A program made the translations under genes and the position numbers. From Acidobacteriaceae bacterium (lineage in GTDB: Bacteria > Acidobacteriota > Terriglobia > Bryobacterales > Bryobacteraceae), in assembly GCA_019245255.1 (NCBI GenBank), contig JAFARV010000085.1, forward strand, positions 1-35,426: 35,426 bases of DNA, written 5' to 3'. The number at the start of each line of letters is the position of its first letter. The first letter of the stretch is position 1. The notes beneath the pieces are model-generated. The model worked only from the letters and a program-made list of their open reading frames with translations. It was not told the origin of the DNA and made no database searches. Below are positions 4,973 to 33,808 of this stretch, piece by piece.

Positions 4973-5134
4973 AATATACCTCGTTTAAGGAGTGTGGTGT
5001 AAGCAGCAGCAATTTCAACTCCACATCTCCCCGGCACCTAGCAATTCACTATCCGATTTCTCTGAGCGAGTACTTATGTGCGAAAAAACCACTGCCTTAT
5101 GACCGAAGAGATTTTCGAGCAGGTGACACTCTGA

Positions 5135-5500: not shown

Positions 5501-5520
5501 ACCCCGTGGGACGGATACAA

Positions 5521-6036: not shown

Positions 6037-6461
6037 AGATCACGGCCGCGTATTTCCGGGACGTAACTCTCCCGCGTCCCGCAAACTCTCTTCTTGCCAG
6101 AGCCTGTGTGACATGCACAACCGGGAGCGCAGGCACTCCGAGCTGTTGTCCTGGCCTTGGTGCACCAACAGCCGGATGAACGTATGCGCTCACGTTCAAG
6201 CTTGATCTTAACGATCGATTTCCAGTCGCTGCAATATTTCATTCGTCCTTTCTCAGCTGTAACATTCTGCCGGACTTTCCTTATCAAGCTTGCCGTACCA
6301 AGCCAATGCAGATTTTTCACTCGCGATGTCCACTAATACAAGTGAGTCACGGACTTTCCTGACTAACGTTCCTGTGGCTCGCCAACCGATATGTACTGTG
6401 AAGCACACTGGAAACACCGGTAACCGCTTCATACAAGATCGGACGCGGCTGATACCGCTGA

Positions 6462-7706: not shown

Positions 7707-7735
7707 CTACGGACGCGTCATCAGGAGAAGAAAAC

Positions 7736-8158
7736 ATGAGACGTCTCAATCATTTATTCGCGGCAGCAGCGCTGAGTGCGCTGCTCGGCGTGGCCGCCAA
7801 TGCCGGAGAATTCAAAGTCATCGCCAATTCGAGTGTGGACACTGCGGCGGTCTCGCTCGACGATCTGAAATCGGTGTTTCTCGAAACCAAGATGGAACTG
7901 GGCTCCGGGCACGTGGTGCCGGTGCTCGAGAAATCCGGGCCTGCACACGAAGCGTTTCTGAAGGACTGCCTGGGCAAGTCGGACTCGGCGCTGTCCACGT
8001 ACTATCGCAGTCTGGTGTTCACCGGTAAGGGCTCGATGCCCAAAGCCCTCGGTTCGGATGCCGATGTAGTGGAGTACGTAGCCAAGACCAAGGGCGCCAT
8101 CGGCTATGTGGCGGCGAGCGCCGCGGCCGCCAGTGTCAAAACTCTCGAAGTGAAGTGA
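7736..8158 (+). CDS. Small PstS-like periplasmic substrate-binding protein
   Basis: Signal peptide; [27 protein letters not shown]...[39 protein letters not shown] resembles phosphate-type substrate-binding domains. Confidence 0.72.
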
Positions 8159-9600
8159 TCCATATGCGAAACCTCAGTATTACGGCGAAGATTTGGCTCA
8201 GTATTGGGGTCTTCGTAGCCGGATTTGTGCTCTCGACGGTGCTCGGACAGGTGGAGAGCTTCGCCACCGAGCACACCTTGAATGCTGCCTCCGACGCGCT
8301 GTTTCCGGCCGCGCAGCAGAGCCAGGAAGCGGAAGCGGCGTTTCAGCGCGCGGTCAAAGGCTTCGGCGATGCGGTGGTGATGCAGGACGCCTCGGGGCTG
8401 GAGCGCGCGGCACAGGAAGGCCAGGCGGCGGTGAGCAGCCTGAAAGGGGTAGCTGCCATCAAAGGTCTGCCGGCGGCGAACAAGGCCACAGCCGGCGAGC
8501 TGGCACAGTCCGTCGATCGGTTCACCGCCGATGCCCGCAAGACCTACAGCGCGCTGCTGAGCGGCGGGGCCGGCAATATGTCCGCCGAAACCCAGGACTC
8601 GATGCAGAAGCTGGCAGCGCGTACTGATGCCTTGAAAGCCTCGCTCGCGGGTCTGAAAAGCGGTCTCTCCAACGACCTGCATAAACAGTTGAGCAGCACC
8701 CGCGCCGCTTCCGTTGCCCAGCGCTGGGTGGCGATCTGCGTGTTTTTGATCACGGTGGCGGTAGCCGGCGTGATCGTGCATCTGACCATTCGCAAATCTA
8801 TCACCGGCCCGATTGTGCACGTCATTCATGGGGTGCAGGAAGCGGCCGATGGTGCAGCTTCGGTTTCCGACGAAATGGCTGCCGCCGGCGATCGCGTGGC
8901 GCGCGAAGCGCAGCAACAGGCCGCCTACATCCAGGAGACCTCGGCATCGCTCGAACAGATTTCCGCCACCACGCGGCAAAATGCCGCGCGTGCCGAGGAA
9001 GCCGATAAGCTGATGCGCACCGCGGGAGACATGGCCGGGCGAGCCGGCACTGCCATGACCGACCTGACGAACTCGATGAAGGCCATCGCCGAATCCAGCC
9101 GCCTGGTTTCCGACGTGCTCAAGAGCATCGACGAGATTGCCTTCCACACCAACATCCTGGCCTTGAACGCAGCCGTGGAAGCGGCGCGCGCCGGTGAGGC
9201 CGGGGCCGGCTTCAGTGTGGTAGCCGATGAAGTACGGGCGCTGGCGCGGCGCGCCGCCGATGCCTCTAAACGCAGCGGCGACATCATCCAGAAGACCATC
9301 AAAGATGTGAACGAAGGGGTGCAGCTGCTGGGTGCGGCGCAAGGAGCGTTCAACGAAGTCTCCTCCGGCATCAACTCCAGCGCGGTTGTGGTCACCCAGA
9401 TTGCCGCCAGCAGTCAGGAACAAGCCATCGGCGTGGGGCAAGTCAGCACTTCGATTACCCGCATCAGCAAGGTCACGCAGAGCAATGCGGCCAATGCCCA
9501 CCGCACTGCTCAATCCATTGCCCAGATGAAGGAACAAGTGGAATCCACACGCCGCCATCTCGAGCAACTGGTCTCCGTCGTCGGTCTGCAGCAGGCGTAG
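8155..9600 (+). CDS. Methyl-accepting chemotaxis protein
   Basis: Two TM segments, HAMP region, hairpin tip [46 protein letters not shown]. The GTG start overlaps the previous stop; ATG at 8164 is an alternative. Confidence 0.93.
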
Positions 9601-9626
9601 TAGCTCACGCTACAAAGTACAAAGTC

Positions 9627-9660
9627 AAACGGCGTTCCCGTCGAGGCGGGAACGCCGTTT
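9627..9660. terminator. Rho-independent-type terminator after the MCP operon
   Basis: Perfect 14-bp stem AAACGGCGTTCCCG-TCGAGG-CGGGAACGCCGTTT. Confidence 0.8.
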
Positions 9661-9909
9661 CTACTTACAGAATTCGCGTAAGGCCCGCGCTGCGCCGGGG
9701 GCCGATAACGCCGGCACACACATCCGCCCCGTTCTCAGGAACCTGACAGGCTCGTGAGAATCTTCGCGTGCGGAGTTTTAACCCGGCACACCCCGACTAT
9801 CGGCGTACAAATAACCGCAGGAGTGCTTGAGTACTCCCTTCAGTGACTGTTTCCGTAAATTAAACCCGATCTAAAGCTTCCGCACAATGTCCTCGATAGG
9901 ACAGATGAC

Positions 9910-10161
9910 CTAGACAGCTGCAGTAAGCATATGCAGAGCGGCACGGCACACGAGTTCAGCGGTGGAATGAATATCCAGCTTTTTGCAGATAGCCTTCCTG
10001 TGATTACTCACTGTGCCGGCGCTCAATTGGAGTAGTGCAGCAATCTCTTTGGTGGTTTTGCCTTGGCCGATCAGATCCAGGACCTGCCGTTCCCTAGGTG
10101 TCAATTGCGCAATGTTACCGCTGAGATTCGACCTTCCATTCAGAGCATTCTTCAGAAACAC
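9910..10161 (-). CDS. LuxR/NarL-type HTH protein, possibly a remnant of a two-domain response regulator
   Basis: LTPRERQVLDLIGQGKTTKEIAALLQLSAGTVSNHRKAICKKLDIHSTAELV = LuxR HTH; no receiver domain in frame upstream. Confidence 0.75.
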   Translation of the reverse strand: MFLKNALNGRSNLSGNIAQLTPRERQVLDLIGQGKTTKEIAALLQLSAGTVSNHRKAICKKLDIHSTAELVCRAALHMLTAAV

Positions 10162-10698
10162 GTTCGCCTCGACTCATCAAGTTCCTTGGTTATGGTCTTT
10201 GAGCGTGCAGCGGAATACTCACAGACGCAAGCGGAATCTCGCGCCCGCGGCGCCGCTACTATCTGAATCTAGAACTCGCTAAAAGGGAAGAGCCTTGGTG
10301 ACTCTATGACATCCTCGTCTTTCAGCGCTTGGTAAGAGATCCGGCGGAGGTTTAAGTCCTCGGCTGGGGTGCAACTTATCTGAAACGCGTCGAAAGTTAA
10401 GGTGCGTGCAGAGGCATGTATGATTTTTGTGTTTGCATTGCTTTGCCCTCTCCAAAAGGCTTGTTGTTCAGCGATCCGGGTAAGGTCAAGCTCCGGAACG
10501 CACTAAGTTTCGAGAGAGAATACCATATAGACGGCGGGATTACAATACGTTAATAACTGATGTTAATAATTAAAGGCCGCAGCAGCATTTGATACAGCTG
10601 AACGCCGTCGGCGGGTATGATAGCAACGCACTTCCGGCAATTGCCACGAATGGGGGCGGGCCAAGCTGGATCGGACTCGAGCCGAGTCGGGCTAAGCG

Positions 10699-11622
10699 CT
10701 AGGAAGGCAATAAATTAAACAGAGACGTTTGCGGCATCTTGGCCTCGGATGCCATGGCAGCCTGGAGGTTAGTCACATATTGCTGCATTTCGACGATGGC
10801 CGAAGTGGCGTCGGCGTCCTGGCGGTTCGAGAGATCCTGTTGATACGCAATGTTCTGACTTGAGGCCTGGGTGAGAGCTGCACTGACGCGGTTCTCAACA
10901 TTTCCATAGAACCCCTGCTGCTGGTTCAGGTAGGTCGACGCATCCTTCACGGCCGATGTAGCCGTCTGCAGGCCGGCGCTATCGTTATTTTGCAGCGCGA
11001 CACGGACCGCATTCATAGCTGCAAAGACGTTCCCTGTCGTGGGTTGATCGGAGCTGTCACGGGCGTCAAAAATTTGCGTCGCGGTTAGCGCAACGGGGAA
11101 CTTGTTGCCGGACGTGTCTTCCGCTTGGCGAGTCGAAGTTGTAACTTGCAGACGGTCGACACCAGTGGGCGAGTTCGCGTCGAACTGGTAGCTGGGGCTT
11201 TGATCGGCGTCACCGCTGAAAATGTATCGTCCGTCGACCTGGGTCTGAGTGAGCGAGACCATCTGCTGCATCAACGTTTGTACCTGGGAAGCGAGTGTCT
11301 GGCGCGTGGCGGCCGTCTGGTTCATCCCAAGGCCCTCGGCTGCCAACGTAGACACCTGATCGAGCACCGTGATACCGCTTGACAGGTTCTGGTCCGCGGT
11401 TGTAACTTCACCTTGCACGGCCGTCAGATTGGTTTGGATCTGCTGGTTCTGCTGAATGTTGGCGTGCAGTTGCAGAATATCGCTGACCTGGTCGGGCGCA
11501 TCCGCCGGAGTCTGTACCTTCAGGCCTGAAGACAATTCAGACTGCACCTGAGACAGGCGGGATTGCAGGTCATTAACGTTGGTTACAAATTGTAGCCCTG
11601 AAGCATTTAATCCAGATACCAT
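10699..11622 (-). CDS. flgL: Flagellar hook-associated protein 3 (FlgL)
   Basis: Flagellin-like N-terminus LNASGLQFVTNVNDLQSRLSQVQSELSSGLKVQTPADAPDQVSDILQL, VDGRYIFSGDAD; next to flgK. Confidence 0.9.
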   Translation of the reverse strand: MVSGLNASGLQFVTNVNDLQSRLSQVQSELSSGLKVQTPADAPDQVSDILQLHANIQQNQQIQTNLTAVQGEVTTADQNLSSGITVLDQVSTLAAEGLGMNQTAATRQTLASQVQTLMQQMVSLTQTQVDGRYIFSGDADQSPSYQFDANSPTGVDRLQVTTSTRQAEDTSGNKFPVALTATQIFDARDSSDQPTTGNVFAAMNAVRVALQNNDSAGLQTATSAVKDASTYLNQQQGFYGNVENRVSAALTQASSQNIAYQQDLSNRQDADATSAIVEMQQYVTNLQAAMASEAKMPQTSLFNLLPS

Positions 11623-11649
11623 GCGTATTCCTTATCGGCTATTCCATCC

Positions 11650-14600
11650 TTAGGCGCTTTGCGGGATGATTGCGAGTACGGACTGAACCATATCATCAAC
11701 GACCGTAATCATCTTTGAGGCGGCCTGGTACGCCATTTGATATTGCAGTACGCGAGTTGCTTCCTGGTTCAGATCTACTCCCGAAACCTGCTGGCGCAGC
11801 GACTGAGCCTGGGTGACGAGACCTTGCTGGACAGACTGCCCATTCTTAGCGTCCGACAGACTAGCGCCAACGGAACCCGCAATACTCCCGAAATAAGCAG
11901 TGAAGCTTTGGCCGTTGATTTCGTCGGTGCCGTCTGTCGGATTTGCCAGCCCGGCCAGAGTGAGTGCAACGGAATTCGCGCTGTTCTGATACGTGGCGGT
12001 GGTAGCCGTCAGTCCGAGCGTCGCATTTGCGGTCCCCGGGAGAATCTGAATGGATCCGTTGGGCCCGGTGTTTGTGGTTGCGAGCACCAGCGCGCCGCTA
12101 TTCGGGTCGAGACTCGCTGTCGCTCCGACGCCGAGCGACTTGAACTGGCCATTGAGGTCGTTCACAACACCGCTGAGCGTTGTATCGGCCGGATTCAGCG
12201 TGATCGCAGAAAGAGATTTCCCGTCGACCTGCAAGTTTAAGGTGTCGTTCGTCTTTGGCGTAATGGTGAATGCAGGCGATAATGCCGTTCCCGCCAGAGA
12301 GGTCAACTGCGGCGATGGCAGGCTCACTGGCCTGGTGTTCCCAAGCCCGAGCGTCGCATTCGCGCTTCCTGCAAGCAGTTGGATCGAGCCGCCAGGCCCG
12401 GTATTGGTAGTCGCAAGCACGAATCCGCCGGTATTCTCGTCGAGACTCGCCGTGGCGCCAATGCCCTGCGATTTAAACTGGCCGTTCAGGTCTGCGACTA
12501 CAGCGCTGAGACTCGTGTCGGCCGGATTCAGCCTAATCCCTGGGACAGAGTTGCCGTCCACCTGTAAGTTCAGGGCGTCGTTTGTGCCTCCAGTAATGGT
12601 GAAAGGGGCAGAAACACCGGCTCCCATTAGCGCCGATACGGGCGCTGGCTGGCTAACCGGCGTGGTAGCCGCAAGTCCGAGCGTCGCATTCGCGCTTCCC
12701 GAGAGAATTTGGATCGATCCACTCGTCCCCGTGTTGGTGGTTGCAAGTACGAGCGCACCGGTATTCGGGTTCAGGCTTGCGGTCGCGCCAATGCCGAGCG
12801 ATTTAAATTGACCATTCAGGTCCGTCACCACACTGTTGAGACTGGTATCCCCGGAATTGAGCGCGATTCCCGGGACAGATTTGCCGTCGACCTTCAAATT
12901 CAGGGCGTCGTTTGTGCCGGCAGTAATGGTGAATGGAGCTGCAACAGCCGTCCCCATCAGAGCCGAAACCTGTGGTGATGACACGCTAACCGGCGTCGCC
13001 GCGGTAAGCCCGAGCGTGGCATTCGCGTTTCCTGTAAGAACCTGGATGGATCCGTTGGGCCCGGTGTTGGTGGTGGCAAGCACGAGCGCGCCGGTATTTG
13101 CGTCAAGACTCGCCGCCGCCCCAATGCCGAGGGACTTGAATTGCCCGTTGAGGTCGGCCACCACGCTGCCCAGCGTTGTATCGGCCGGATTCAGCGTGAT
13201 CGGGGAAAGAGATTTACCGTCGACCTGTAAGTTCAGGGTGTCGTTTGTACCCGGCGTAATCGCAAATGGAGCGCCGACGGCTGTTCCTGCCAGAGCCGGA
13301 ACCTGCGGCGATGCCACATTGACGGAGGTCGTGTTCGTGAGACCAAGGGTCGTATTCGCGTTTCCGGAAAGAATTTGAATGGAACCGTTGGGCCCGGTGT
13401 TGGTGGTGGCAAGCACGAGCGCGCCGGTATTTGCGTCAAGACTCGCCGCCGCCCCAATGCCGAGCGATTTGAACTGGCTGTTCAGGTCCGTGGCGACAGC
13501 ATTCAGACTGCTGTCGGCCGGATTCAGCGTAATCGGTGAAATCGTCTTGCCGTCAACTTGAAGCTTTACTGTGTCGTTTGTTCCTGGAGTGATTGTCAAC
13601 GCGGGTGTACTGGCCGTCCCCGTCAGGGCTGATACCTGTGCAGACGGCAAGTTTGTGGCTGTGACATTCGGATTTATCTGCAGAGTTGCGGCTGTGCTGG
13701 TCCCGCTCGTCTGATCGTAGGTGAACAGCGGCACGCCTAAAACAGTGTTTACCCGGTCGGCGAAGGTCCTCGCCAGTTCGTTTAGAGAACCGGTTTGGCT
13801 GCTGTCGCCTTGAAGGCCAGGCAGTATCTGGTTGCGTACTGCGATGGCGCCGGCGAGCTTGCCGGTCGTAATTTCAGTGGTAACGTCATTGCCATGCGAA
13901 TCGGTGACTTGCGCCTGCGGAGGGGGGTTGACGGCAAGCCCGAGGGTGGTATTTGCAGTCCCGGAAAGGATCTCGACCGATGCGCCGGCGCCGGTCGATC
14001 CTGACGCCATCACAAGCTGGGTTCCGGTGGAATCAACGCTCGCCTTCGTCGTACTGCCCATGGCCTGCAACTGCGTGTTGATGTCGTGCGCTACGGCAGC
14101 TACTGTCGTATCGCTCGGACTCAGAGTTATCGGCTTCGACAGCGCCTTGCCGTCGATTTTCAAGTTCAAGGCATCGTTAACGCCGGCTGTAATCTGGATC
14201 GGAACGTGTACGGGGGCGCCGCTTTGCACGACAGGAGTTGTCGGAACGTAGACCGCGGCGGTCAATTTGTTCACCGTCGAACCGTCCACCAGCTCAGTCT
14301 GTCCGCCGAGCATCACGCGGAACGTTCCGTCCGGCTCCTTGATGGTCATCACATTGGCGACCTCGGACAGCTGTTCCAAAGTACTGTTCACGGCTGCATC
14401 GACGGACGGATCCAGCTGCCCGCCGGCAGAGATCTGGGCGTTATAGCCCGCCAACTGCGCTGCCAGTTGATTGACTTGACCGGTCAAATTGCTGACCTCG
14501 CCGTCTGTGTTTTGAGCCACTGTGGACACGTTCGCGGCTGTACTGTTGAATGCAGAAGCGACGGTTTGGGCTTGATTGATGACTGCTTGCCGGGTAACGC

Positions 14601-14982
14601 TGCTGTTTGGAGACGAAGCCCAGGAGCTGAATGCGGTAAACAGGCTATTAAATGCGGCCGGAACGCCGCTGTTCCCCGAAAGGTCGAATTGATTGTTGAG
14701 GGGCGTCAGGTCGTTGACCTGTTGCTCGTAATAGCCAAGCTGAGCAGTGCTGTTGCGGACGCTTGTTTCGGCATAGTCACTGCGGGAACTTTGCAATGGC
14801 CCCAGCTCGACACCTCCCGGCTCCTTCCCTCCGACTTCGAACGGCATGGCCTCAAAGGTCGGGGTTTGCTCTACGTATCCAGGCGTCGAGGCATTGCTGA
14901 CATTGTTTTGAACGACGTTCAGGGCATTTTGAAATGCCGCAAGAGAGTTCGAGGCGGATGTAAGACTCGAAAACAGTGACAT
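11650..14982 (-). CDS. flgK: Flagellar hook-associated protein 1 (FlgK), 1110 aa, with tandem IN-like repeats
   Basis: N-terminus SLFSSLTSASNSLAAFQNALNVVQNNVSNASTPGYVEQTPTFE and C-terminus VDLNQEATRVLQYQMAYQAASKMITVVDDMVQSVL are FlgK hallmarks. Confidence 0.93.
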   Translation of the reverse strand: MSLFSSLTSASNSLAAFQNALNVVQNNVSNASTPGYVEQTPTFEAMPFEVGGKEPGGVELGPLQSSRSDYAETSVRNSTAQLGYYEQQVNDLTPLNNQFDLSGNSGVPAAFNSLFTAFSSWASSPNSSVTRQAVINQAQTVASAFNSTAANVSTVAQNTDGEVSNLTGQVNQLAAQLAGYNAQISAGGQLDPSVDAAVNSTLEQLSEVANVMTIKEPDGTFRVMLGGQTELVDGSTVNKLTAAVYVPTTPVVQSGAPVHVPIQITAGVNDALNLKIDGKALSKPITLSPSDTTVAAVAHDINTQLQAMGSTTKASVDSTGTQLVMASGSTGAGASVEILSGTANTTLGLAVNPPPQAQVTDSHGNDVTTEITTGKLAGAIAVRNQILPGLQGDSSQTGSLNELARTFADRVNTVLGVPLFTYDQTSGTSTAATLQINPNVTATNLPSAQVSALTGTASTPALTITPGTNDTVKLQVDGKTISPITLNPADSSLNAVATDLNSQFKSLGIGAAASLDANTGALVLATTNTGPNGSIQILSGNANTTLGLTNTTSVNVASPQVPALAGTAVGAPFAITPGTNDTLNLQVDGKSLSPITLNPADTTLGSVVADLNGQFKSLGIGAAASLDANTGALVLATTNTGPNGSIQVLTGNANATLGLTAATPVSVSSPQVSALMGTAVAAPFTITAGTNDALNLKVDGKSVPGIALNSGDTSLNSVVTDLNGQFKSLGIGATASLNPNTGALVLATTNTGTSGSIQILSGSANATLGLAATTPVSQPAPVSALMGAGVSAPFTITGGTNDALNLQVDGNSVPGIRLNPADTSLSAVVADLNGQFKSQGIGATASLDENTGGFVLATTNTGPGGSIQLLAGSANATLGLGNTRPVSLPSPQLTSLAGTALSPAFTITPKTNDTLNLQVDGKSLSAITLNPADTTLSGVVNDLNGQFKSLGVGATASLDPNSGALVLATTNTGPNGSIQILPGTANATLGLTATTATYQNSANSVALTLAGLANPTDGTDEINGQSFTAYFGSIAGSVGASLSDAKNGQSVQQGLVTQAQSLRQQVSGVDLNQEATRVLQYQMAYQAASKMITVVDDMVQSVLAIIPQSA
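11990..13660 (-). repeat. Five tandem ~333-bp (111-aa) repeats within flgK, Flagellin_IN-like
   Basis: Repeated xALxGTAxxxxFTITPGTNDxLNLQVDGKSxxxITLNPADTTLxxVVxDLNGQFKSLGIGAxASLDxNTGALVLATTNTGPxGSIQxLxGxANATLGL; 13052-13131 and 13385-13464 are 80/80 identical at offset 333. Confidence 0.9.
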
Positions 14983-14993
14983 CGACTCACCTC

Positions 14994-15335
14994 CTACAGA
15001 TGAACCAGCGTGGTTGACGAACCGTACGGTTCCAGGCTCTTGATTGTGCCGCCGCGCTCATACGAGCCGAAATTTGCCGCCCGCAACGCCTGGAGGCCTT
15101 CGTAGAATTTGACGGGAGCTTCCATCAACTTCCGGATGGCGGCCATTTCCCGCGGAACGCCGGATAGGAACGCACGTTCGTTACCGCCGGGCGCAGCAGT
15201 CTGCATCGCAGCGATCGGCTGCAGCAATGCCGCGATCGTTTCCAACTTCCCGGTAACCTGATCGAAGTTCTCGGGCGTGGGATCGGTCAACAGACGGTGT
15301 ATGTCGCGAATCTCCTGGGCCGCGCTTTCGACCAT
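14994..15335 (-). CDS. Small flagellar protein, FlgN chaperone-like by position and helical content
   Basis: 113-aa helical ORF between flgM and flgK; sequence similarity not certain. Confidence 0.45.
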   Translation of the reverse strand: MVESAAQEIRDIHRLLTDPTPENFDQVTGKLETIAALLQPIAAMQTAAPGGNERAFLSGVPREMAAIRKLMEAPVKFYEGLQALRAANFGSYERGGTIKSLEPYGSSTTLVHL

Positions 15336-15345
15336 AGGGCGTCCC

Positions 15346-15642
15346 CTATCTCGCAGGGCTAATCGCTTCCGACACGATGCCCTTACTGATCTGCATCGGA
15401 TTAATCTGAAAAGCCTTGGAATTCACAGCCTTAGCGATTTGACTGAGCCGTGCCGAGCGATCCGCGTCCACGGACGCGCCGCTCTGTAGCCGTGAAGCCA
15501 AACTCGATAACTGCAGATTGTCGGAGGCCCCAGACCGCGACGGCGCCTTGGAGGAGGATGAGCCCGTTGCGGTGTCGACCTCGCTGGTCCGGCCGGTTTG
15601 CGTCGTTATGCGCTCGGAGAATCCCTGGTCGGTAATTTTCAT
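15346..15642 (-). CDS. flgM: FlgM-like anti-sigma-28 factor
   Basis: MKITDQGFSERI...LSSLASRLQSGASVDADRSARLSQIAKAVNSKAFQINPMQISKGIVSEAI. Confidence 0.75.
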   Translation of the reverse strand: MKITDQGFSERITTQTGRTSEVDTATGSSSSKAPSRSGASDNLQLSSLASRLQSGASVDADRSARLSQIAKAVNSKAFQINPMQISKGIVSEAISPAR

Positions 15643-15888
15643 ATCTGTTCTCTACTTGCGATTCGGTGCGTAGGTACTACCTGTATCGGGCTATACCCTG
15701 AACGGGAAAACGGAGTGGGTGGTCCGATGTAGTTCAAGAGAACAGTCCGCATAAATAGTCTCGGCAAAACTCTAATTTTCTTTAGAAAAAAGTCGAAAAG
15801 TTCCTGTGCCGGCAAGCACAGTATTAATGCCGCTGCTATCGGTATCTAGGGACGCGGCTTTTCCCGGTCATGACCGGAACGAAACATA

Positions 15889-17304
15889 ATGGCCATAACC
15901 AAACCTCAGGCAGTTTTGTGCGTTACCCATGCAGTGATGCTGCAGCATCTGCAAACTGTTGCAACCGAACTGGATGTCAGCCTGGTCGAGGCACACAGTA
16001 CCGAAGCCCTGTTGAGCTATGCGGAGCTGGCTCGTGCAGCCGCAATTGTAGTGGAGGTGTCTGAATTTTCGTCCCAAACCTCGCAATTGATGGACGCCCT
16101 CCGGGCGCAAGCACCCGACGTTCCGATCATTGTTCTTCTCGAGAAGCCCTCGGCCGCCGACGCCATCCGCTTTAGCCGATATGGCGCATCTGACTGCCTG
16201 GATTGCTTATCGACCACGGAGCAATTCTTTTCGGCGTTGCAGATTTCACTCGCAGCGAGCAAAAATGTGCGTGAAAGCACGGACACGGCGGCGGCGGCGG
16301 AGCCCTGGCGGAAGCTCCTGGTGGGCCGTAGCGTTCCGATGGAACAGATCAGTAAAGTCATCCGGCTGATTGCATCGCGGCGCTGTACCGTGTTGATCTC
16401 AGGGGAAACCGGAACAGGTAAGGAAGTGGTCGCCAAGGCGATTCATATGGCCAGTTCCCGCGGCCGGCGGCCGATGGTGTCCGTGAACTGCGGCGCCATA
16501 CCCGAGAACCTGGTGGAGGCGGAACTCTTCGGCCACGTAAAAGGGGCGTTTACCGGCGCGGTGAATCATCGCATCGGCCGATTTGAACAAGCCAATGGCG
16601 GCACGCTGTTTCTGGATGAGATTGCCGATCTTCCATTGGAGCTGCAATCGAAACTGTTGCGCGCCTTGCAAGAGAAAGAGATCCAGCGCCTCGGTGGCAG
16701 CGAAACGCTCAAGGTGGATGTCCGTGTGATTGCGGCAACAAACGCCGACCTGCTCGCTCGCGTCCGCGAAGGGCGGTTCCGCGAGGATCTCTATTACCGG
16801 CTCAATGTCGTGCCTATTCACCTGCCTACTTTGAGGGGCCGCGCCTGCGATATTCCTCTGCTGATCGAACACTTTGTGCGCAAGGTCTGTGAGGCCGAAG
16901 GTATCGCGCCGAAATCGGTCAGCCCGGAGGCAGTGAGGCTGTTGTCCGGACACTCCTGGCCCGGTAACGTGCGCCAGCTCGAGAATGCCGTCGAGCACGC
17001 AGTTGTCATGAGCGGCGATCGTGAATATCTGTATGCGTCGGACTTTTCCCTGCGTCTCGATCACACGACAACACCGGCTGCAGTGTCTCAGGACGGAAAC
17101 ATCGTGGATACGGTTCCGGGAAGCCAGAAGGAATTTCCTGAGGAAGGCCTCGATTTCACGGAAACGCTACGCCAGTTCGAGCGGGCCATTCTTCAGGAGG
17201 CGATGTCGCGGGCCCAGGGCAACAAAACAGTCGCCGCGGATATGCTGAAGCTGCCTCGCACCACATTGATTCATAAATTACGCGTGCTGGACACCGTAAT
17301 GTAA
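15889..17304 (+). CDS. Sigma-54-dependent transcriptional activator (FlrC/FleQ/NtrC type)
   Basis: AAA+ motifs GETGTGKE, GAFTGA, FLDEIADLPLELQSKLLRALQEKEIQRLGG; C-terminal Fis-type HTH; N-terminal divergent receiver-like domain. Confidence 0.93.
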   Translation: MAITKPQAVLCVTHAVMLQHLQTVATELDVSLVEAHSTEALLSYAELARAAAIVVEVSEFSSQTSQLMDALRAQAPDVPIIVLLEKPSAADAIRFSRYGASDCLDCLSTTEQFFSALQISLAASKNVRESTDTAAAAEPWRKLLVGRSVPMEQISKVIRLIASRRCTVLISGETGTGKEVVAKAIHMASSRGRRPMVSVNCGAIPENLVEAELFGHVKGAFTGAVNHRIGRFEQANGGTLFLDEIADLPLELQSKLLRALQEKEIQRLGGSETLKVDVRVIAATNADLLARVREGRFREDLYYRLNVVPIHLPTLRGRACDIPLLIEHFVRKVCEAEGIAPKSVSPEAVRLLSGHSWPGNVRQLENAVEHAVVMSGDREYLYASDFSLRLDHTTTPAAVSQDGNIVDTVPGSQKEFPEEGLDFTETLRQFERAILQEAMSRAQGNKTVAADMLKLPRTTLIHKLRVLDTVM

Positions 17305-17306
17305 GA

Positions 17307-17324
17307 GCACGGCAGAAGCCGTGC
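17307..17324. other. Hairpin GCACGGC-AGAA-GCCGTGC between the sigma-54 activator and motA
   Basis: Perfect 7-bp stem with 4-nt loop; no clear T tract follows. Confidence 0.5.
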
Positions 17325-17374
17325 CTTAAAAGCCGTATTCACTCTTCAAACAGCCGATATGTGAGTACGGAATC

Positions 17375-18256
17375 ATGTTCGCAATTATCGGCATCGTTGT
17401 GGTCATCGGCGCAATCCTAGGCGGCTACCTCATGGAGAAAGGGCCACTTATGGTCTTGGTGCAGCCTGCGGAGCTGCTCATCATCGGTGGTGCATCGCTG
17501 GGGACTGTCCTCATCGCAAATCCCCTGCCTACGGTTATCAAGCTGTTCAAAGGCATCCTCGGCATTCTCGGGGGCAGCAAGTATACTCAGGCGTCCTATC
17601 TCGAAAGTTTAAAGATGCTGAGCGACCTGTTTCAGTTCGCACGCAAGAACGGCTTGCCAAAGCTCGAAGCGGACCTGGATGAGCCGGAAAAGAGCGCCGT
17701 CTTCAGCAAGTACCCGAAGTTTCTTGCCGACCATCATGCGGTGGCATTTGTGTGCGACACACTGCGCATGTTCATCAGCGCTGGTGCCGATCCGTTTGAC
17801 CTGGACCAAATGATGGAACTCGATATGGAGGTTCATCATCACGAAACACAAGAGCCGACGGCGGCGCTGGCAACCATGGCCGATTCCCTGCCCGGATTGG
17901 GAATTGTTGCCGCGGTGCTGGGCATTGTCATCACCATGGGTGCAATTGGAGGCCCGCCTGAGCAGATCGGCCATAAGGTAGCGGCGGCGCTTGTCGGTAC
18001 CTTCCTCGGCATTCTGATGTGCTATGGCTTCATCGGGCCGATCGCAGCCAACCTGACGAAGATCAATGAGGCCGACGGCCAGTACTATCATTTTCTGCGC
18101 GTGGGTGTGCTGGCCTTTATCAAGGGTTCATCACCCATGACAGCGGTTGAATTTGCGCGGCGGTCGATTCCATCGAGCGTTCGCCCAAGCTTTAAGGAAA
18201 TGGAAACCGCCTGCCGCGGGGGCGCCGCGGCACCGGCGCCTGCGGCCGCGGCGTAG
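17375..18256 (+). CDS. motA: Flagellar motor stator protein MotA
   Basis: MFAIIGIVVVIGAILGGYLMEKGPLMVLVQPAELLIIGGASLG... MADSLPGLGIVAAVLGIVITMGAI. Confidence 0.95.
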   Translation: MFAIIGIVVVIGAILGGYLMEKGPLMVLVQPAELLIIGGASLGTVLIANPLPTVIKLFKGILGILGGSKYTQASYLESLKMLSDLFQFARKNGLPKLEADLDEPEKSAVFSKYPKFLADHHAVAFVCDTLRMFISAGADPFDLDQMMELDMEVHHHETQEPTAALATMADSLPGLGIVAAVLGIVITMGAIGGPPEQIGHKVAAALVGTFLGILMCYGFIGPIAANLTKINEADGQYYHFLRVGVLAFIKGSSPMTAVEFARRSIPSSVRPSFKEMETACRGGAAAPAPAAAA

Positions 18257-18259
18257 TCT

Positions 18260-19096
18260 ATGGACTCGCGCCGGCCGATCATCATCAAAAAGAAAGTCGT
18301 CCACGGCGGTCATCATGGGGGCGCGTGGAAGGTTGCCTACGCCGATTTTGTGACGGCCATGATGGCACTGTTTATTGTGCTCTGGCTGCTCACGTCAAAT
18401 GAGAAGGTGCGTCAGGCAGTGGGCGGTTACTTCAAGGATCCGATTGGCCGCGGCAAGAATCCCGGCACCAGCATGACCGGTACGGGGCGCGACGTTTCCG
18501 TGCTGAAGGATGACATGAGCGGCCTCAAGGAGAAGCTGCAGTCTGTAATCAAGCTGATTCCCCACTTCGAACAAATGAAGGGAAATGTCGAGTTCACCAT
18601 CACCGAAGAAGGTCTCAAGATCGATCTGATCGAGAACTCGAAGGGCATCTTCTTCGAATCAGGCAAGCCGCAACCAAGCGATCTTGGGAAGGAGCTTCTG
18701 GTTGCGCTCGCGAAGGAACTTGGCCGGTTACCGAACCGGCTCCTGATCGAAGGTCATACCGATGCACAGCAGTATGCCGATGTGACGGCGTACTCGAATT
18801 GGGAACTCTCCGCCGACCGTTCCAATGCCGCCCGGCGCTTAATGGAAGCTAACGGGCTGGCATCCAACCAAGTCGCACAGATCAGAGGTTATGCCGATCA
18901 AGATCTGCGGAACAAAAATAATCCGGAAGATCCCGCGAATCGCCGGGTCTCCGTTATCGTCCGCTATTTGGATGCCCCGAAGCAGGTGAAGCTCAACTCG
19001 CTAGAGGGTAAAGTTCAGGAGACCGAGCAGCACCCCGTTGTCAACCCTGCAGGCATTGTGGTTCCGGCCAGCGCCAAATCGCCAAAAGGCCACTAG
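18260..19096 (+). CDS. motB: Flagellar motor protein MotB
   Basis: RPIIIKKKVVHGGHHGGAWKVAYADFVTAMMALFIVLWLL and OmpA-like LLIEGHTDAQQYADVTAYSNWELSADRSNAARRLMEANGL. Confidence 0.95.
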   Translation: MDSRRPIIIKKKVVHGGHHGGAWKVAYADFVTAMMALFIVLWLLTSNEKVRQAVGGYFKDPIGRGKNPGTSMTGTGRDVSVLKDDMSGLKEKLQSVIKLIPHFEQMKGNVEFTITEEGLKIDLIENSKGIFFESGKPQPSDLGKELLVALAKELGRLPNRLLIEGHTDAQQYADVTAYSNWELSADRSNAARRLMEANGLASNQVAQIRGYADQDLRNKNNPEDPANRRVSVIVRYLDAPKQVKLNSLEGKVQETEQHPVVNPAGIVVPASAKSPKGH

Positions 19097-20478
19097 CTTC
19101 GGTTAAGTCCGAGACATAAGCGGATCAGATGCTTCTCCTGCTCGGAGACCGAAGGATCCAACAGCGCAGCTTCCTGTTCCCTTCTCCAGCGATCCACTGA
19201 TGCCTGCTCTTCTGCCTCACGGCTGGACTCTGATTCCTGTTCGCGCATCCGATCGTTCCGATATTTTTTCAAGACCTCACCAGAAAAGCATTTTGGAACC
19301 GCGGTCAGCAGAAAACCAATCGGACTGTGTACTCGGCTCTCACGTTTCTGAATATGACTGGCCTTTTCCCGAACAAAGTGCACGATCTCAGATTCGGTGC
19401 AATCCGCTGCCTGAGCGCGACACGCAGCTACCAGGCGCACTACAGCGTCGTCGTCGATCGGGCCAAGCTGATTCAAGGCGGCGTATACGACGGGATATGC
19501 GGACGATGACGTAGTGCTGTCTAAAACATTTGTATCTAATAGATGCCCGGACATTTTGACTACAGTAGACCGGTTGTTTTTGACCACAGTAACTGTGGTC
19601 TCCGGGACCATAGTAGACACGTCTCCGGTAACCACAGAGGACATATTGGACCTGGCTACTGTGGTCATGTCGCTCATTTCAGCCGGGCGAGCTACTGACG
19701 AGGTATTCGAGTCGAGCGGCCGCGCATACGAAAACCCGGGCCCCATTTTTGCGACATACAGGCGGCCCTTCCGAACATGGCGGTCCAGCACGGCTTTGTA
19801 GCTAAAAACGCGGTAGATAGTCGGGGCGCGCTGGTAAATGTCGGCGCGCGTCTCGATTGCGATGAAATCTTTTTCGAGCAGCTTGGCAATAATGCGTTGG
19901 ATGGTCTTCCGCGCCAAGCGGGTCCGCTTCACCAGGTAGTCGTAGCCCGCCTGAACGAGACGGCAGGACTCGCGATCATCGGTAGAGACAAGCTTTGCGT
20001 TCCAAAGCGTATCGTATACGCACTCCTCGGCGGAATTAATCACATCCTGCGCCAAACGAATCCGTTTCACACGCGCCTCCGAGACCAGATCACCGTGTTC
20101 AGTGATCCAGAGCGGCCGCGCCTTGGGCGTTGCGGGAGCAACTGTGGCCACGTCGGAGGTGACCAGTGTAGGATCGGTGGTGCCGGCTGTTGGCGGGGAC
20201 TCGCCACGGGGACGCCTCGCAAATGACGTCATAGGCCTGACCACAGTGGTCATGTCTCGCGTTGCAGGGGAGCTTGTAGACCCGGCCACTGTAGCCAGGT
20301 GGGCGGCAGAACTGGAACCAGACGTGACTACAGGGGCCAGGCTGGAAGTGACTACAGTCGGAGCGGTAACCAGGTGCGAACCAACACCTTTGCCGACAGC
20401 GGGCGAGAAGATCAGGTCCTCAAGCTCGCTGGGATCGAAGGCTGGCTGCTTCTTACTAGACCGCGATGGTCTCGCCAT
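19093..20478 (-). CDS. Winged-helix plasmid replication/partition-like protein with repeat-rich linkers
   Basis: Central wHTH-like region ECVYDTLWNAK...LVKRTRLARKTIQRIIAKLLEKDFIAIETRADIYQRAPTIYRVF. Start set at the ATG overlapping the parA stop. Two linkers are rich in TTVV/STVV/ATVA. Confidence 0.65.
   Translation of the reverse strand: MARPSRSSKKQPAFDPSELEDLIFSPAVGKGVGSHLVTAPTVVTSSLAPVVTSGSSSAAHLATVAGSTSSPATRDMTTVVRPMTSFARRPRGESPPTAGTTDPTLVTSDVATVAPATPKARPLWITEHGDLVSEARVKRIRLAQDVINSAEECVYDTLWNAKLVSTDDRESCRLVQAGYDYLVKRTRLARKTIQRIIAKLLEKDFIAIETRADIYQRAPTIYRVFSYKAVLDRHVRKGRLYVAKMGPGFSYARPLDSNTSSVARPAEMSDMTTVARSNMSSVVTGDVSTMVPETTVTVVKNNRSTVVKMSGHLLDTNVLDSTTSSSAYPVVYAALNQLGPIDDDAVVRLVAACRAQAADCTESEIVHFVREKASHIQKRESRVHSPIGFLLTAVPKCFSGEVLKKYRNDRMREQESESSREAEEQASVDRWRREQEAALLDPSVSEQEKHLIRLCLGLNRS
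19557..19667. repeat. Five imperfect palindromic sites at an exact 24-bp period (starts 19557, 19581, 19605, 19629, 19653), inside the wHTH gene
   Basis: tgactacagtagacc, tgaccacagtaactg, ggaccatagtagaca, taaccacagaggaca, tggctactgtggtca, compared with TGACYACWGTRGTCA. Confidence 0.8.
20238..20252. promoter_or_regulatory. Full palindromic site TGACCACAGTGGTCA inside the wHTH gene
   Basis: 15/15 to TGACYACWGTRGTCA; further degenerate sites at 20283, 20325 and 20349. Confidence 0.7.
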
Positions 20479-21259
20479 GCTGGTGCTCGCTCGACAGAAG
20501 TTGCGGCTTGAGCAGATCGAGAATCGCCGAGGTCGCTCCCTCGTAGTCTTCGAGGGCCTTTGCTTTGGGATCGATATCGGCAATCATGCGGTGGGCGCGG
20601 GCGGCTTTCCCGATGATCTGGTCCGTGCGGATGGCGTTCAGGACAGGGATCTTGTAGGTGTCGCTCAGCTGCTGGACCATCTTCATCACCACATCGGTGA
20701 GGCCGAAGCGGCGGTTGACGATCGTTGGCAGCAGCGCAAGCGTGTGTATCGGAGTGCGCACGCTATCGCCGATGGTTTGGGCCGAAAAAATGGTGGCGCC
20801 GGCGCCAGACACGCTGAGAGTGTCCATAGAAATCGGGATCAGCACGTTCTGGCAGAACACCATGGAACAGGCCTGGAGCAGGGAAATCGAGGGCGCAACA
20901 TCCACCACAATCGCGTCGTAGGACTCTTCGTACATGCGGAAGGCGTTCTGAAATACGTGTTCACGTCCGTACATGGTGAAAATGCGCTGCTCCATCGCAG
21001 TGGTCTCCCGGTTGCCGCAAAGCACATCGAGCCGCTCCGCGATCTTCACCACGCAATCCGGAAGGCGCAGCTGGTTCAGAATGAAGTCGGAGAAGTAAGC
21101 CTCCGGCTTTAAGCGGAGTGTGACGGCGATAGAACCTTGTGGATCGCTATCGATGAGCAGCGTCCGGAAGCCGCGGTCGGCGAGGCAACGCGCCACCGTG
21201 ATAGCGGTCGTCGTCTTCCCGACGCCGCCCTTCTGATTCCCAATCATGAGCTTAATCAT
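20456..21259 (-). CDS. parA: ParA/Soj-family partition ATPase
   Basis: GNQKGGVGKTTTAITVARCLADRGFRTLLIDSDPQGS deviant Walker A; YDAIVVDVAPSISLL. Confidence 0.92.
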   Translation of the reverse strand: MIKLMIGNQKGGVGKTTTAITVARCLADRGFRTLLIDSDPQGSIAVTLRLKPEAYFSDFILNQLRLPDCVVKIAERLDVLCGNRETTAMEQRIFTMYGREHVFQNAFRMYEESYDAIVVDVAPSISLLQACSMVFCQNVLIPISMDTLSVSGAGATIFSAQTIGDSVRTPIHTLALLPTIVNRRFGLTDVVMKMVQQLSDTYKIPVLNAIRTDQIIGKAARAHRMIADIDPKAKALEDYEGATSAILDLLKPQLLSSEHQHGETIAV

Positions 21260-21679: not shown

Positions 21680-22204
21680 TTACTGTCCTGGAGCCGTTTG
21701 TGCCATCGTGATCCGGCGGTCAAACTCCTCTGGGTCATTACCCATGGCCATAATGAGTGCAAGTAATTTCTGTTTGGCTTCGTCCGGTGTCATGAAGCTT
21801 TCAATAAGGATGCGGCCGGGCGAGAGGCGAACGCCCTCAGGGAGATCTTCGAGGTGCTGCGCCAGGATGGTATCAGACGCTTCGACGAGAACCTGCGGTT
21901 GCTTGAGCGCCTCGCGATGCCACGTCTGGATCAGCCCCGCAACCCGCCTCCGCCGCTGCTGTTCATACACGGCTTTATCGCCTCGCGCCAGGTGTCGCAG
22001 ATAGCGAATCACCTCGTCCTTCAAGGCCAGACCGTTCCTGCCGATCGTATGGCGGACGAGTGGTTGTAAGAGCTGTTGCGCGCGCCGGCGTCCGATACCC
22101 AGGATTGACTCGAGTGTTGCGCGATCGACCCAGGGGGAGGGAAGGGTAGCGAGTTGGGCCTCGGCTTCTGCGAGCCGGTCGTACCAGAGGGGTTTGTCCG
22201 GCAT
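21680..22204 (-). CDS. Hypothetical protein with possible HTH
   Basis: RATLESILGIGRRRAQQLLQPLVRHTIGRNGLALKDEVIRYLRHLARG; upstream of the parA operon in the same orientation. Confidence 0.6.
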   Translation of the reverse strand: MPDKPLWYDRLAEAEAQLATLPSPWVDRATLESILGIGRRRAQQLLQPLVRHTIGRNGLALKDEVIRYLRHLARGDKAVYEQQRRRRVAGLIQTWHREALKQPQVLVEASDTILAQHLEDLPEGVRLSPGRILIESFMTPDEAKQKLLALIMAMGNDPEEFDRRITMAQTAPGQ

Positions 22205-22443
22205 CAGGTGCTCTCGTGCGCTTATATAAACGTTACAGCCACAAGCGGTTGGCTCGTTTGTCAGGATAGCACGCTGTCACGGCGATTATGCGCACGTGCG
22301 CAAAACCGCTGCAGTCTGACGTGTAAAACGTCTCTGGCGCACCTGGCTGCGTTAAAGTATGGGTTGTTCCTGGCTTTTGCTAAAGTTTATTAGCGAAAGT
22401 TGACAAGAGCTATTATTTCCGGCCATACTAATGGCTATTAAAT

Positions 22444-22674
22444 ATGGACGTATCTATTGCAGAAGCGAAGAACCGTTTGCCGGAGCTGATTCGCGCGGTC
22501 GAGGGCGGGGAACAGGTTGTCATCACGCGGCATGGGAAACCCGTCGCCCAAATCGCGCCGCCACCAGCCGAACGTAGTCGGGTCCAACTGGGATCGATGC
22601 GAGACCGAATCAAGTTATATCCCGGCTGGGATGACCCAATTGATCTGGAGCGCTTCCTCGAGGGCGACAGTTGA
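22444..22674 (+). CDS. Phd/YefM-type antitoxin
   Basis: MDVSIAEAKNRLPELIRAVEGGEQVVITRHGKPVAQIAPP. Confidence 0.9.
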   Translation: MDVSIAEAKNRLPELIRAVEGGEQVVITRHGKPVAQIAPPPAERSRVQLGSMRDRIKLYPGWDDPIDLERFLEGDS

Positions 22675-23060
22675 GCCGCTACCTCCTCGACACGAATGCT
22701 GCGTTGCTAGGGTTATCGACCCCCGAATCGCTGCCGGGTAAAGTGCGCGAGGCGATGTTAGCTGGCCGAAACACTCTAAGTGTCCTTGCTTATTGGGAGG
22801 TGCTGCTCAAGAGTATGAAAGGCAAGCTTGATGTCGGGGACCCACGCGCATGGTGGCTGGATGCAGTGAATAAGCTTTCAGCAACCATTGTGCAATTGCG
22901 TGTAGAACACATCTCTGCCATTCGCGAGTTGCCCCCGATCCACCAGGACCCGTTCGACCGTGCACTCATCGGGCAAGCGATGGTCGAGGATCTGACGTTG
23001 GTGACCCTCGACGGTGACATCCCCAAATACGCCTCAGATCGGTTGCGAGTTCTCGTATGA
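22671..23060 (+). CDS. VapC-like PIN toxin
   Basis: YLLDTNAALLGLSTPESL...LSVLAYWEVLLKSMKGKL...HQDPFDRALIGQAMVEDLTLVTLDGDIPKY; TTG start overlaps the antitoxin TGA. Confidence 0.9.
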   Translation: MSRYLLDTNAALLGLSTPESLPGKVREAMLAGRNTLSVLAYWEVLLKSMKGKLDVGDPRAWWLDAVNKLSATIVQLRVEHISAIRELPPIHQDPFDRALIGQAMVEDLTLVTLDGDIPKYASDRLRVLV

Positions 23061-23123
23061 GCGCGCGCTTGTCACCGTTTCCGATCCCCTCCCGGCGATT
23101 CGCCGCCTGGTGCTCGATTCCGT
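22980..23123. repeat. Copy A of ~142-bp direct repeat (vapC 3' end plus integrase 5' end)
   Basis: Nearly identical to 23801-23942; a few substitutions and one 2-bp indel. Confidence 0.93.
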
Positions 23124-23162
23124 TCCGCGAAGCCGCGGTGAATTCTTGAAAAGGAGCGGCTG

Positions 23163-23771
23163 ATGAGCGAACGTTTACCTACGCAATCAGCTTTCAATAT
23201 TGGTTTTCCGCAGGAAATCGTGTCCGGTCGTCCACGTGTTGTACAGACCGACCGAAAGGACCCGGTGCTCGGGCAGACTATTCTGCAGGAGATGAGGGAG
23301 TTTTTGCCGGACGGAAGAATACTTGAAGAGTCGTACTACAGGTCCGACGGCACGATCGCACACCGCTTGATGCACGAATATTCTGAAGCAGGTGAACCGA
23401 CTCTGATCAAGCGATTCGAGGGCGCAGAAGTAGAGAAGTACACCATCTTGGCGCCGGAGGGCCTTTCGAATCCGCTAACTGCGCGGTCACCCATCGAAGT
23501 TCAATCAGGTGAAAACGGACCGGTTTTCACCCTTTTTACGCCCGAACAGCAAGTTATAGGGCGGGCTGAGATGAGGCTTGGAGATACCGTCCGTGAACTG
23601 TCCTGGTTCGCAGATGGTGAAACACGTCCCGGAATGAGGAGGATAGAGCGTGTGGATTCACGGGACAACAACGGGAATTGGACGCAAAAAACACTTTTTG
23701 AGCAGCGAGGGAATGGCGAGCCAAAGCCTATAGCGGAGTTGTATCGGCGAATAGCATATTACGAGACGTGA
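23163..23771 (+). CDS. Hypothetical protein lying between the repeat copies
   Basis: 202-aa ORF; weak YD/RHS-like phrases (LPDGRILEESYYRSDGTIAHRLMHEYSEAGEPT; DNNGNWTQKTLFEQRGNGE). Confidence 0.65.
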   Translation: MSERLPTQSAFNIGFPQEIVSGRPRVVQTDRKDPVLGQTILQEMREFLPDGRILEESYYRSDGTIAHRLMHEYSEAGEPTLIKRFEGAEVEKYTILAPEGLSNPLTARSPIEVQSGENGPVFTLFTPEQQVIGRAEMRLGDTVRELSWFADGETRPGMRRIERVDSRDNNGNWTQKTLFEQRGNGEPKPIAELYRRIAYYET

Positions 23772-23800
23772 ATACGACATCAAACCGGGTACCGTTGCGT

Positions 23801-23942
23801 ATGGTCGAGGATCTGACCTTGGTGACCCTCGACGGTGACATCCCCAAATACGCCTCAGATCGGTTGCGAGTTCTGGCATGAGCGCGCTTGTCACCGTTTC
23901 CGATCCCCTCCCGGCGATTCGCCGCCTGGTGCTCGATTCCGT
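23801..23942. repeat. Copy B of the direct repeat (vapC 3' remnant plus true integrase start)
   Basis: Aligned to 22980-23123. Confidence 0.93.
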
Positions 23943-24840
23943 CTCGAGCCCACTCACGAAAACGCTCTACGCGAAGGCGCTGGACGACTTCTTCGCCTGG
24001 CGGCTCGAAAACGGATCCCCAGTATTTCATCGCGCAGCCGTGCAAGCTCATCGCGCGTGGCTCGAAGCGCAGAACTATGCGCCATCTTCAATCAACCAAC
24101 GTCTGGCCGCACTTCGGAAACTAGCGCGGGAAGCCGCGGCCAATGGCTGGCTCGACGCCGAGACGGCCGCTGGCATCGACCAGATGCCGGGTGTGAAACA
24201 GCAGGGAACCCGGAGTGGCAACTGGTTAACCAAGCAGCAAGCGGCGGCGCTGCTGCATGCGCCGGACCCGTGTACGCTCAAGGGAATTCGGGACCGAGCC
24301 ATTTTGGCGGTCCTCATCGGATGCGCTCTGCGGCGGTCCGAACTGGTGGCGCTTGAAACGGACCATGTGCAACAGCGCGATGGCCGTTGGGTGCTGGTTG
24401 ACCTCCGCGGCAAGCACGGCCGTATTCGCTCGATCGCCATTCCGCCTTGGGTCAAACAGGCGTTCGATCTCTGGATGGATGCTGCCGATGTCATCGAAGG
24501 AAAACTGTTCCGCGCCCTCAATCGTCACGGCATGCTCACGCGCGATACGCTTTCCACGCAGGCGGTGCTCGACATTGTGAAAGAGTACAGTGAACGACTC
24601 GGGATTCGGGTGCGCCCGCACGATCTGCGGCGCACCTGCGCGAAGCTGTGCCGGGCTGCGGGCGGGGATTTGGAACAGATTCAGTTGCTGCTCGGGCACG
24701 CCTCCATTCAAACAACGGAGCGTTATCTTGGCACCCGTCAGAACCTGGCCGACGCTCCTAATGACCGGCTGGGGCTCGGTTGGGACGCGTCAGCGAGAGA
24801 AGGGCGGGTGTTTTCGGAGCTTGAGTTCCAAGCTCCTTGA
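23878..24840 (+). CDS. Tyrosine recombinase/integrase (XerC/D-like)
   Basis: IGCALRRSELVALE, RPHDLRRTCAKLCRAAGGDLEQIQLLLGHASIQTTERYLG = R...HxxR...H...Y catalytic set. Confidence 0.93.
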   Translation: MSALVTVSDPLPAIRRLVLDSVSSPLTKTLYAKALDDFFAWRLENGSPVFHRAAVQAHRAWLEAQNYAPSSINQRLAALRKLAREAAANGWLDAETAAGIDQMPGVKQQGTRSGNWLTKQQAAALLHAPDPCTLKGIRDRAILAVLIGCALRRSELVALETDHVQQRDGRWVLVDLRGKHGRIRSIAIPPWVKQAFDLWMDAADVIEGKLFRALNRHGMLTRDTLSTQAVLDIVKEYSERLGIRVRPHDLRRTCAKLCRAAGGDLEQIQLLLGHASIQTTERYLGTRQNLADAPNDRLGLGWDASAREGRVFSELEFQAP

Positions 24841-31863: not shown

Positions 31864-32565
31864 ATGCTAAAAATTTCAGGCGCCGTGCTTTCCGCGGCGC
31901 TCGTTTTATCCACATTCGCAGCCACAGCACAAGCTGCGATGGAAGTACAGGTAACCGATAACGTTTCCACCGTAACCGTAGCCGACCAGGGAGCGGGTGA
32001 TACGAATCCGATTGCAGGTATACTGTCAACCGACATCCCGCAACTTTATTTGATAGGGGTCAACAATGCGACGATTACCGCGGCGGGAAGTCCTGCGATC
32101 GGGCAAGGCGCATTAGATCTGAATGATCTCGACATCGCCGTCGGCTCGGCCACGACGATTACGGTAGAGCTTTCCGAAAACAATCAAACGTCGCCGACCG
32201 GCCCAGCTTATCTGAATCAACAGTTCAGCCTGACTTCACTCTCCGGGAACGCGACCGTGACTCTGACGGGGTATGAAAACAACTCGAATACGCTGTTCGA
32301 TACCACCGGATTGGCAACCAACCCGTTGTCACTTTCTACCGTCGGCGGCCTGACGGACTCATCCGCTGTCGGATCGTTCAGCTCGCCGTACTCGTTGACC
32401 GAAGTTGCGACCATCGTATTCCACACCATGGGTACGCTGGACCTGCAATTTACTGGCAACCTCTCAGCTTCACCGGTTCCGGAGCCGACCTCGATCCTGC
32501 TATTCGGAACGGTTCTCGCGGCAGCCGGCCTCGTGATGCGGAAGCGTTTCGTAGCCAACAACTAG
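31864..32565 (+). CDS. PEP-CTERM sorting domain protein (paralog 1)
   Basis: Signal peptide; C-terminus VPEPTSILLFGTVLAAAGLVMRKRF; RBS GAGGAG. Confidence 0.93.
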   Translation: MLKISGAVLSAALVLSTFAATAQAAMEVQVTDNVSTVTVADQGAGDTNPIAGILSTDIPQLYLIGVNNATITAAGSPAIGQGALDLNDLDIAVGSATTITVELSENNQTSPTGPAYLNQQFSLTSLSGNATVTLTGYENNSNTLFDTTGLATNPLSLSTVGGLTDSSAVGSFSSPYSLTEVATIVFHTMGTLDLQFTGNLSASPVPEPTSILLFGTVLAAAGLVMRKRFVANN

Positions 32566-33106: not shown

Positions 33107-33808
33107 ATGCTAAAGATTTCAGGCGCCGTGCTCTCTGCGGCGCTCGTTTTATCCACATTCGCAGCCACGGCACAAGCGGCGATGGAAGTAAAAGTAAGCG
33201 ATAACCTTTATAGCGTAACCGTAGCGGACCAGGGACCGGGTGATTCGGTTCCAATTCCAGGTATACTGCAAACCAATATCTCGCAATTCTATTTTTGGGG
33301 CCTGAACGACGCAACGATTACCGGTGCCGGAAGCCCCGTGCTCGGGGAAGGCGCGCTAGCGCTGAATACTCTCGACATCGCCGTCGGCACGCCTACGACG
33401 CTAACGGTAGCTCTCTCCGAAAACGATGAAATGTTGCCGACCGGTCCGGCTTATCTGAATCAACAGTTCAGCCTGACTTCACTCTCCGGCAACGCGACAG
33501 TGACTCTGACCGGGTATGAAAGTAATTCGAATAAGCTGTTCGATACCACCGGATTGGCAACCAAGCCATTGTCACTTTCCGCAGTGGGCGGTGTGACGGA
33601 TTCATCCGCCGTCGGATTATTCAAGGCGCCATACTCGTTGACCGAGGTTGCGACCATCGTTTTCCAAACGTGTGGTGAGCTGGACCTGCAATTCACTGGC
33701 AACCTGGCGGCTTCGCCAGTCCCCGAGCCGGCCTCCATCCTGCTATTCGGAACGGTTCTCGCGGCAGCGGGCCTGGTGATGCGAAAGCGTTTCGTGACCA
33801 ACAACTAG
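33107..33808 (+). CDS. PEP-CTERM sorting domain protein (paralog 2)
   Basis: Same length and closely similar to 31864-32565; VPEPASILLFGTVLAAAGLVMRKRF. Confidence 0.93.
   Translation: MLKISGAVLSAALVLSTFAATAQAAMEVKVSDNLYSVTVADQGPGDSVPIPGILQTNISQFYFWGLNDATITGAGSPVLGEGALALNTLDIAVGTPTTLTVALSENDEMLPTGPAYLNQQFSLTSLSGNATVTLTGYESNSNKLFDTTGLATKPLSLSAVGGVTDSSAVGLFKAPYSLTEVATIVFQTCGELDLQFTGNLAASPVPEPASILLFGTVLAAAGLVMRKRFVTNN

Follow-up and report, generated by a model that had tools for sequence, protein, structure and literature searches.

The window, by which we mean the whole 35,426-nt stretch of Acidobacteriaceae DNA analysed here, carries a tyrosine recombinase gene (int) whose first part is present twice (Table 1). 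A phd-type antitoxin gene and an intact vapC toxin gene are followed by an int remnant (int′), an open reading frame of 202 codons (ORF202) and the complete int; on the other side, in the opposite orientation, lie o174, parA and a putative replication initiator gene. Both PF02604 and PF01850 are matched above cut-off, and phd lies upstream of and overlaps vapC, which identifies the two as a type II toxin-antitoxin (TA) pair, phd-vapC. No tRNA gene was found in the window.

Table 1. Features of the int locus, in order of position in the window.
Feature	Position	Strand	Evidence or remark
Putative replication initiator gene (rep), winged-helix-like	19093..20583	-	Inferred from weak HTH matches and position beside parA
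parA	20456..21259	-	PF13614, E 3.1e-33
o174, plasmid-backbone gene	21680..22204	-	Adjoins int in relatives (L033, L039, L045)
Intergenic region o174-phd, with candidate recombination site and TA promoter region	22205..22443	.	
Candidate dif-like 11-6-11 site GGCTTTTGCTAAAGTTTATTAGCGAAAGTT	22372..22401	.	Best PWM match in the whole window, both strands
phd-type antitoxin gene	22444..22674	+	PF02604, E 9.7e-11; TIGR01552
vapC (PIN-domain toxin), intact	22671..23060	+	PF01850, E 9.5e-10
Repeat copy A	22980..23123	+	vapC 3′ end and int′ 5′ end
int′ remnant	23057..23149	+	First 22 int codons, 2-bp frameshift
ORF202, passenger gene	23163..23771	+	202 aa; weak relative, RHS/YD-repeat-like proteins of the same bacterial family
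Repeat copy B	23801..23942	+	Last 26 vapC codons and int 5′ end
int, complete XerC/D-like tyrosine recombinase	23878..24840	+	PF00589, E 4.6e-24; 320 aa

An earlier note on this DNA had described 22980–23123 and 23801–23942 as near-identical, and alignment bears this out: the two copies are 98% identical over about 142 columns, with three substitutions and one 2-bp indel. The indel, a GC dinucleotide (copy A GCGCGCGC, copy B GCGCGC), joins two blocks, the first of 87 nt at 97% identity (22980–23066 and 23801–23887) and the second of 61 nt at 100% identity (23063–23123 and 23882–23942), and the spacing between the copies is 821/819 bp. The pair is far above chance (E 7.8e-62, blastn against its own genome) and is the sole such pair in the genome assembly. 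The earlier account of what each copy joins was equally accurate. In copy A, the complete vapC (22671–23060) ends with its stop codon overlapping the ATG of int′ (23057), the truncated integrase being cut to 22 frameshifted codons; in copy B, the last 26 vapC codons (MVEDLTLVTLDGDIPKYASDRLRVLA, then the stop), beginning at 23801, overlap the start of the complete 320-aa int (23878).

The int′ stub is out of frame through the 2-bp insertion, its sequence reading MSARLSPFPIPSRRFAAWCSIPFREAAVNS and then a stop, and translation from its ATG ends at 23149 after 30 codons. Beyond the stub, 23126–23143 matches int codons 84–89 at 15 of 18 bases (2 of 60 shuffles were as good); this statistically weak match is suggestive only of a second int′ remnant, which would mark an internal int′ deletion. 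The complete int, with a GC content of 62%, retains the whole R-K-H-R-H-Y catalytic set, R153, K179, H248, R251, H274 and Y283 being invariant in eight relatives. Since its scores of 117 and 116 bits fall under the XerC/XerD equivalog cut-offs of 335 and 330 bits, its predicted product is related to, yet distinct from, the chromosomal XerC/XerD of the host.

The int family comprises XerC/D-like recombinases on Acidobacteriota and Deinococcus plasmids, near parA/rep genes, and it is also found in many contigs from the same bacterial family. Plasmids with int relatives include Paludibaculum pPfer1 (L039, 67%), pACIX905 (L043) and those of Deinococcus, Acidisarcina and Granulicella; the closest relatives share 66–67% identity. 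Furthermore, the neighbourhood of parA and o174 is common to the window int, L033, L039 and L045. Because its relatives lie on plasmids and these neighbours are held in common, the segment 19093–24840 is, judged by gene content, a plasmid-type maintenance block.

Several further observations concern this block and its surroundings. The palindrome TGACCACnGTnGTCA occurs at five places between 19653 and 21654, in and around the putative rep gene and parA and sometimes within coding sequence, with nine matches over both strands against 0.56 expected; parS or iteron sites are possible identities. Flagellar and chemotaxis genes (fliM, cheX-like, flgL-like flagellin, motA and motB) occupy 3995–19096 and abut the block, motB ending at 19096 and the putative rep gene starting at 19093, and in L033 FliW and two flagellins come directly after the related int. 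Such flagellar genes beside plasmid-type blocks could be a sign that Bryobacterales have flagellar plasmids. The genome assembly itself holds two FlhA genes (contigs C715 and C988), which reflect either two flagellar systems or contamination. Downstream of the block, very similar tandem genes at 31864–32565 and 33107–33808 encode PEP-CTERM-like proteins that end in VPEPxSILLFGTVLAAAGLVMRKR.

ORF202 is preceded by a good Shine-Dalgarno sequence (AAGGAG), has a GC content of 52.5% and is longer than expected by chance, 6 of 500 resamples reaching its length. It matches no Pfam or NCBIfam family, RHS_repeat included, and no relatives were found in plasmids, phages or IMG/VR, nor, at E 1e-3, in 100 relatives or 396 phylum genomes. 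When the cut-off was relaxed in an order-level search, weak full-length relatives emerged in L109 and L111 (24–28%), and fragments in L110; with 22.3 bits, the L109 protein (25%) lies barely over the RHS_repeat cut-off of 22. Single-sequence structure prediction returned an all-beta model with a mean pLDDT of only 39.9. Most likely, ORF202 is a passenger gene whose product, to judge from its relatives, is a host-type beta-repeat protein, either secreted or at the cell surface. Because its relatives sit away from recombinase and TA genes (neither int nor a TA gene occurs within the 3-kb loci of L109–L111), ORF202 gives the impression of passenger DNA picked up at random.

In about 27 distinct loci of relatives, an 11-6-11 palindromic dif-like site with the core ATAATGnnCnTTAT lies 20–100 nt before int; family members at 45–50% identity are mostly without a recognisable site. 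The PWM for this site was built from 14 sequences, the remaining loci, about half, being independent of the matrix. Its best match in the window lies 42 nt before phd and about 1.5 kb from int; resampling yielded a score at least as high in 5 of 2000 intergenic regions and in 3 of 100 whole windows. The match is degenerate, and it stays a candidate dif-like site because the window has further 9/11 palindromes that are just as good. An initial PWM candidate immediately upstream of phd, CTAATGGCTATTAA, gave way to 22372–22401, which the matrix favoured. The idea that the repeat serves as an attachment site fared poorly: the PWM scan found no dif-like site inside copy A or copy B, and since the best candidate precedes phd, outside both, the repeats are probably not attachment sites.

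How the TA pair came to stand between site and recombinase can be approached through the nearest relatives. In L033/L065, L039/L066 (L039 being pPfer1) and L045, a dif-like site is followed directly by int, without phd-vapC. Because of this arrangement, and because phd-vapC homologues are common elsewhere, phd-vapC looks like an insertion between the dif-like site and int, with vapC-int as an intermediate state. Indeed, a DNA search of the family genomes placed phd-vapC homologues at many other positions (64–83%), some matches beginning in the phd promoter region; these matches attest to how widespread the TA pair is, but say nothing of where the pair in the window came from. The earlier note had taken vapC-int as the probable ancestral order. 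This stands in so far as vapC-int preceded the split, since the junction, with its vapC-stop/int-start overlap, is the same in both copies, but not as the deep order, the nearest relatives being without phd-vapC. The further proposal, that the ORF-bearing segment was gained along with a duplication of the junction, is likewise supported. An ancestral ORF between long-diverged copies is not what we found, as no relative has ORF202 beside int and the copies are about 2% different.

As to the origin of the structure, we lean towards a scar that recombination left at the locus for dimer resolution in a plasmid-type replicon, formed when two phd-vapC-int replicons joined and then underwent deletions, and hold this to be rather probable. 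The ancestral state would have been o174, dif-like site and int, in that order. First, as comparison with relatives shows, phd-vapC would have entered the gap from site to int, so placed that the vapC stop overlaps the start of int. Second, two phd-vapC-int replicons would have been joined, by homologous recombination or by Int at dif-like sites, to give a product in which phd-vapC-int was followed by passenger DNA and then by phd-vapC-int again. Third, deletions would have taken most of the first int, and also all that lay between ORF202 and the final 26 vapC codons of the second module, the second site included. Left over would be a single passenger gene, one intact TA pair and two versions of int, the first a dead stub and the other live. 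The loss of the second site would have stopped resolution and fixed the structure, and the live int would be expected to resolve dimers at the single site before phd.

A joining of replicons is favoured by the two near-identical junction copies with their matching stop/start overlap, by the int relatives on plasmids beside parA/o174 (pPfer1, pACIX905 and L045), by a candidate site that has been pushed away from int by phd-vapC, unlike the short distances in relatives, by the int remnants with extra DNA in three other loci, described below, and by the random-passenger character suggested for ORF202. There is also a precedent, reversible plasmid fusion and resolution at Xer sites being documented in Acinetobacter (PMC5790767). 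Against it, an intermediate with two full phd-vapC-int modules was absent among the relatives found, the single dif-like site in the window is a degenerate match, the presumed second remnant of int′ is statistically weak, and a local tandem duplication with deletions would lead to an identical arrangement. This latter route, which we judge clearly less probable while giving it some weight, would begin with one replicon already carrying ORF202 downstream of int; the segment from the vapC tail through int to ORF202 would be duplicated in tandem, after which most of the first int and the second ORF202 would be lost. It dispenses with a second replicon and suits copies that differ so little; however, no trace of ORF202 follows the live int, and no relative has ORF202 downstream of int.

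An assembly chimera, in which a metagenome contig was wrongly joined at a junction shared by two strains, strikes us as quite improbable: the source assembly is fragmented (1041 contigs, 79% complete) and repeats are classic misassembly points, but the copies differ at four places, each is joined to different unique DNA, and three loci from independent assemblies (L051, L055 and L056) are built in a similar way. Least credible is that ORF202 is a mobile cassette, one that uses the vapC-int junction for attachment and could leave as an 821-bp circle, for although a direct repeat brackets ORF202 beside a tyrosine recombinase gene, the conserved site of this recombinase family lies elsewhere, the repeats are 142 bp of slightly diverged coding sequence unique in the genome, the relatives of ORF202 have no recombinases nearby, and searches of 200 family genomes and of plasmids turned up no other ORF bracketed by these repeats.

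The order of an int remnant, extra DNA and a longer int recurs in three related loci. In L051, a 60-nt int fragment (residues 30–48 of its own int) is followed by an HNH-type ORF and then int; in L055, a frameshifted int is followed by 1.2 kb and then int. In L056, from the same genus, an internally deleted int precedes an ORF and a longer int copy that is 79–88% identical to the first; the longer copy has one internal stop and may be broken, and no dif-like site was recognised there. Strong sites (score >15) far from an intact int are rare in the set, the distances being about 1500 nt in the window, 965 in L051, 2103 for the second int of L055 and 361 in Deinococcus L040. In this limited sample of loci, which was not chosen for estimating frequencies, all three site-to-int gaps above 900 nt (the window, L051 and L055) contain an int remnant.

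A more general reading, which we put forward as conjecture and think unlikely, is that the gap between site and int is a recurrent accretion spot: it takes up incoming units, each made of a passenger gene and a further int, while the int already present degenerates into a stub and TA or HNH genes are carried in alongside. Were this true, int stubs would record successive acquisitions, and the process would amount to slow, recombinase-renewing capture, distinct from integrons and pdif modules. The locus itself shows TA and passenger genes settling between a resolution site and a recombinase gene, where leftover pieces of recombinase serve as markers. Should a broader survey bear the pattern out, the sequence in which little-studied Acidobacteriota plasmids gained their genes could be read from int stubs.

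Finally, the locus may be set beside known systems. With XerC/D-like plasmid resolution (dif, cer-like and single-recombinase sites) it shares an int with the full catalytic set, an 11-6-11 site that adjoins the gene in its relatives, and linkage to parA/rep on plasmids; it differs in that the candidate site in the window is degenerate, with 1.5 kb of apparently inserted genes before int. Acinetobacter plasmids carry pdif modules (PMC13141974, PMC5790767), in which dif-like sites, TA genes and passenger genes likewise occur together, Xer recombination gathering them on plasmids. In contrast to those modules, whose passengers lie between two dif-like sites, ORF202 is flanked by vapC/int coding repeats, with one candidate site in the window and none between vapC and int; in addition, the replicon here itself encodes the recombinase. 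Integron gene cassettes also bring a passenger gene close to a tyrosine recombinase, whereas ORF202 lies upstream of int and in the same direction, and int scores 29.3 bits with integrase_gron against a cut-off of 265.

A further comparison lies within the Acidobacteriota. A family of HNH-type small proteins is encoded by genes that immediately precede related int genes or overlap them (L044:3447–3995, L051:8985–9353, L061, twice, and L073), with 45–65% identity between members on different plasmids and contigs. These HNH-int pairs resemble the window in having an extra gene directly upstream of a related int and, in one case, an int remnant before that gene; unlike theirs, which is HNH-type, the extra gene of the window bears a weak resemblance to RHS-like genes.
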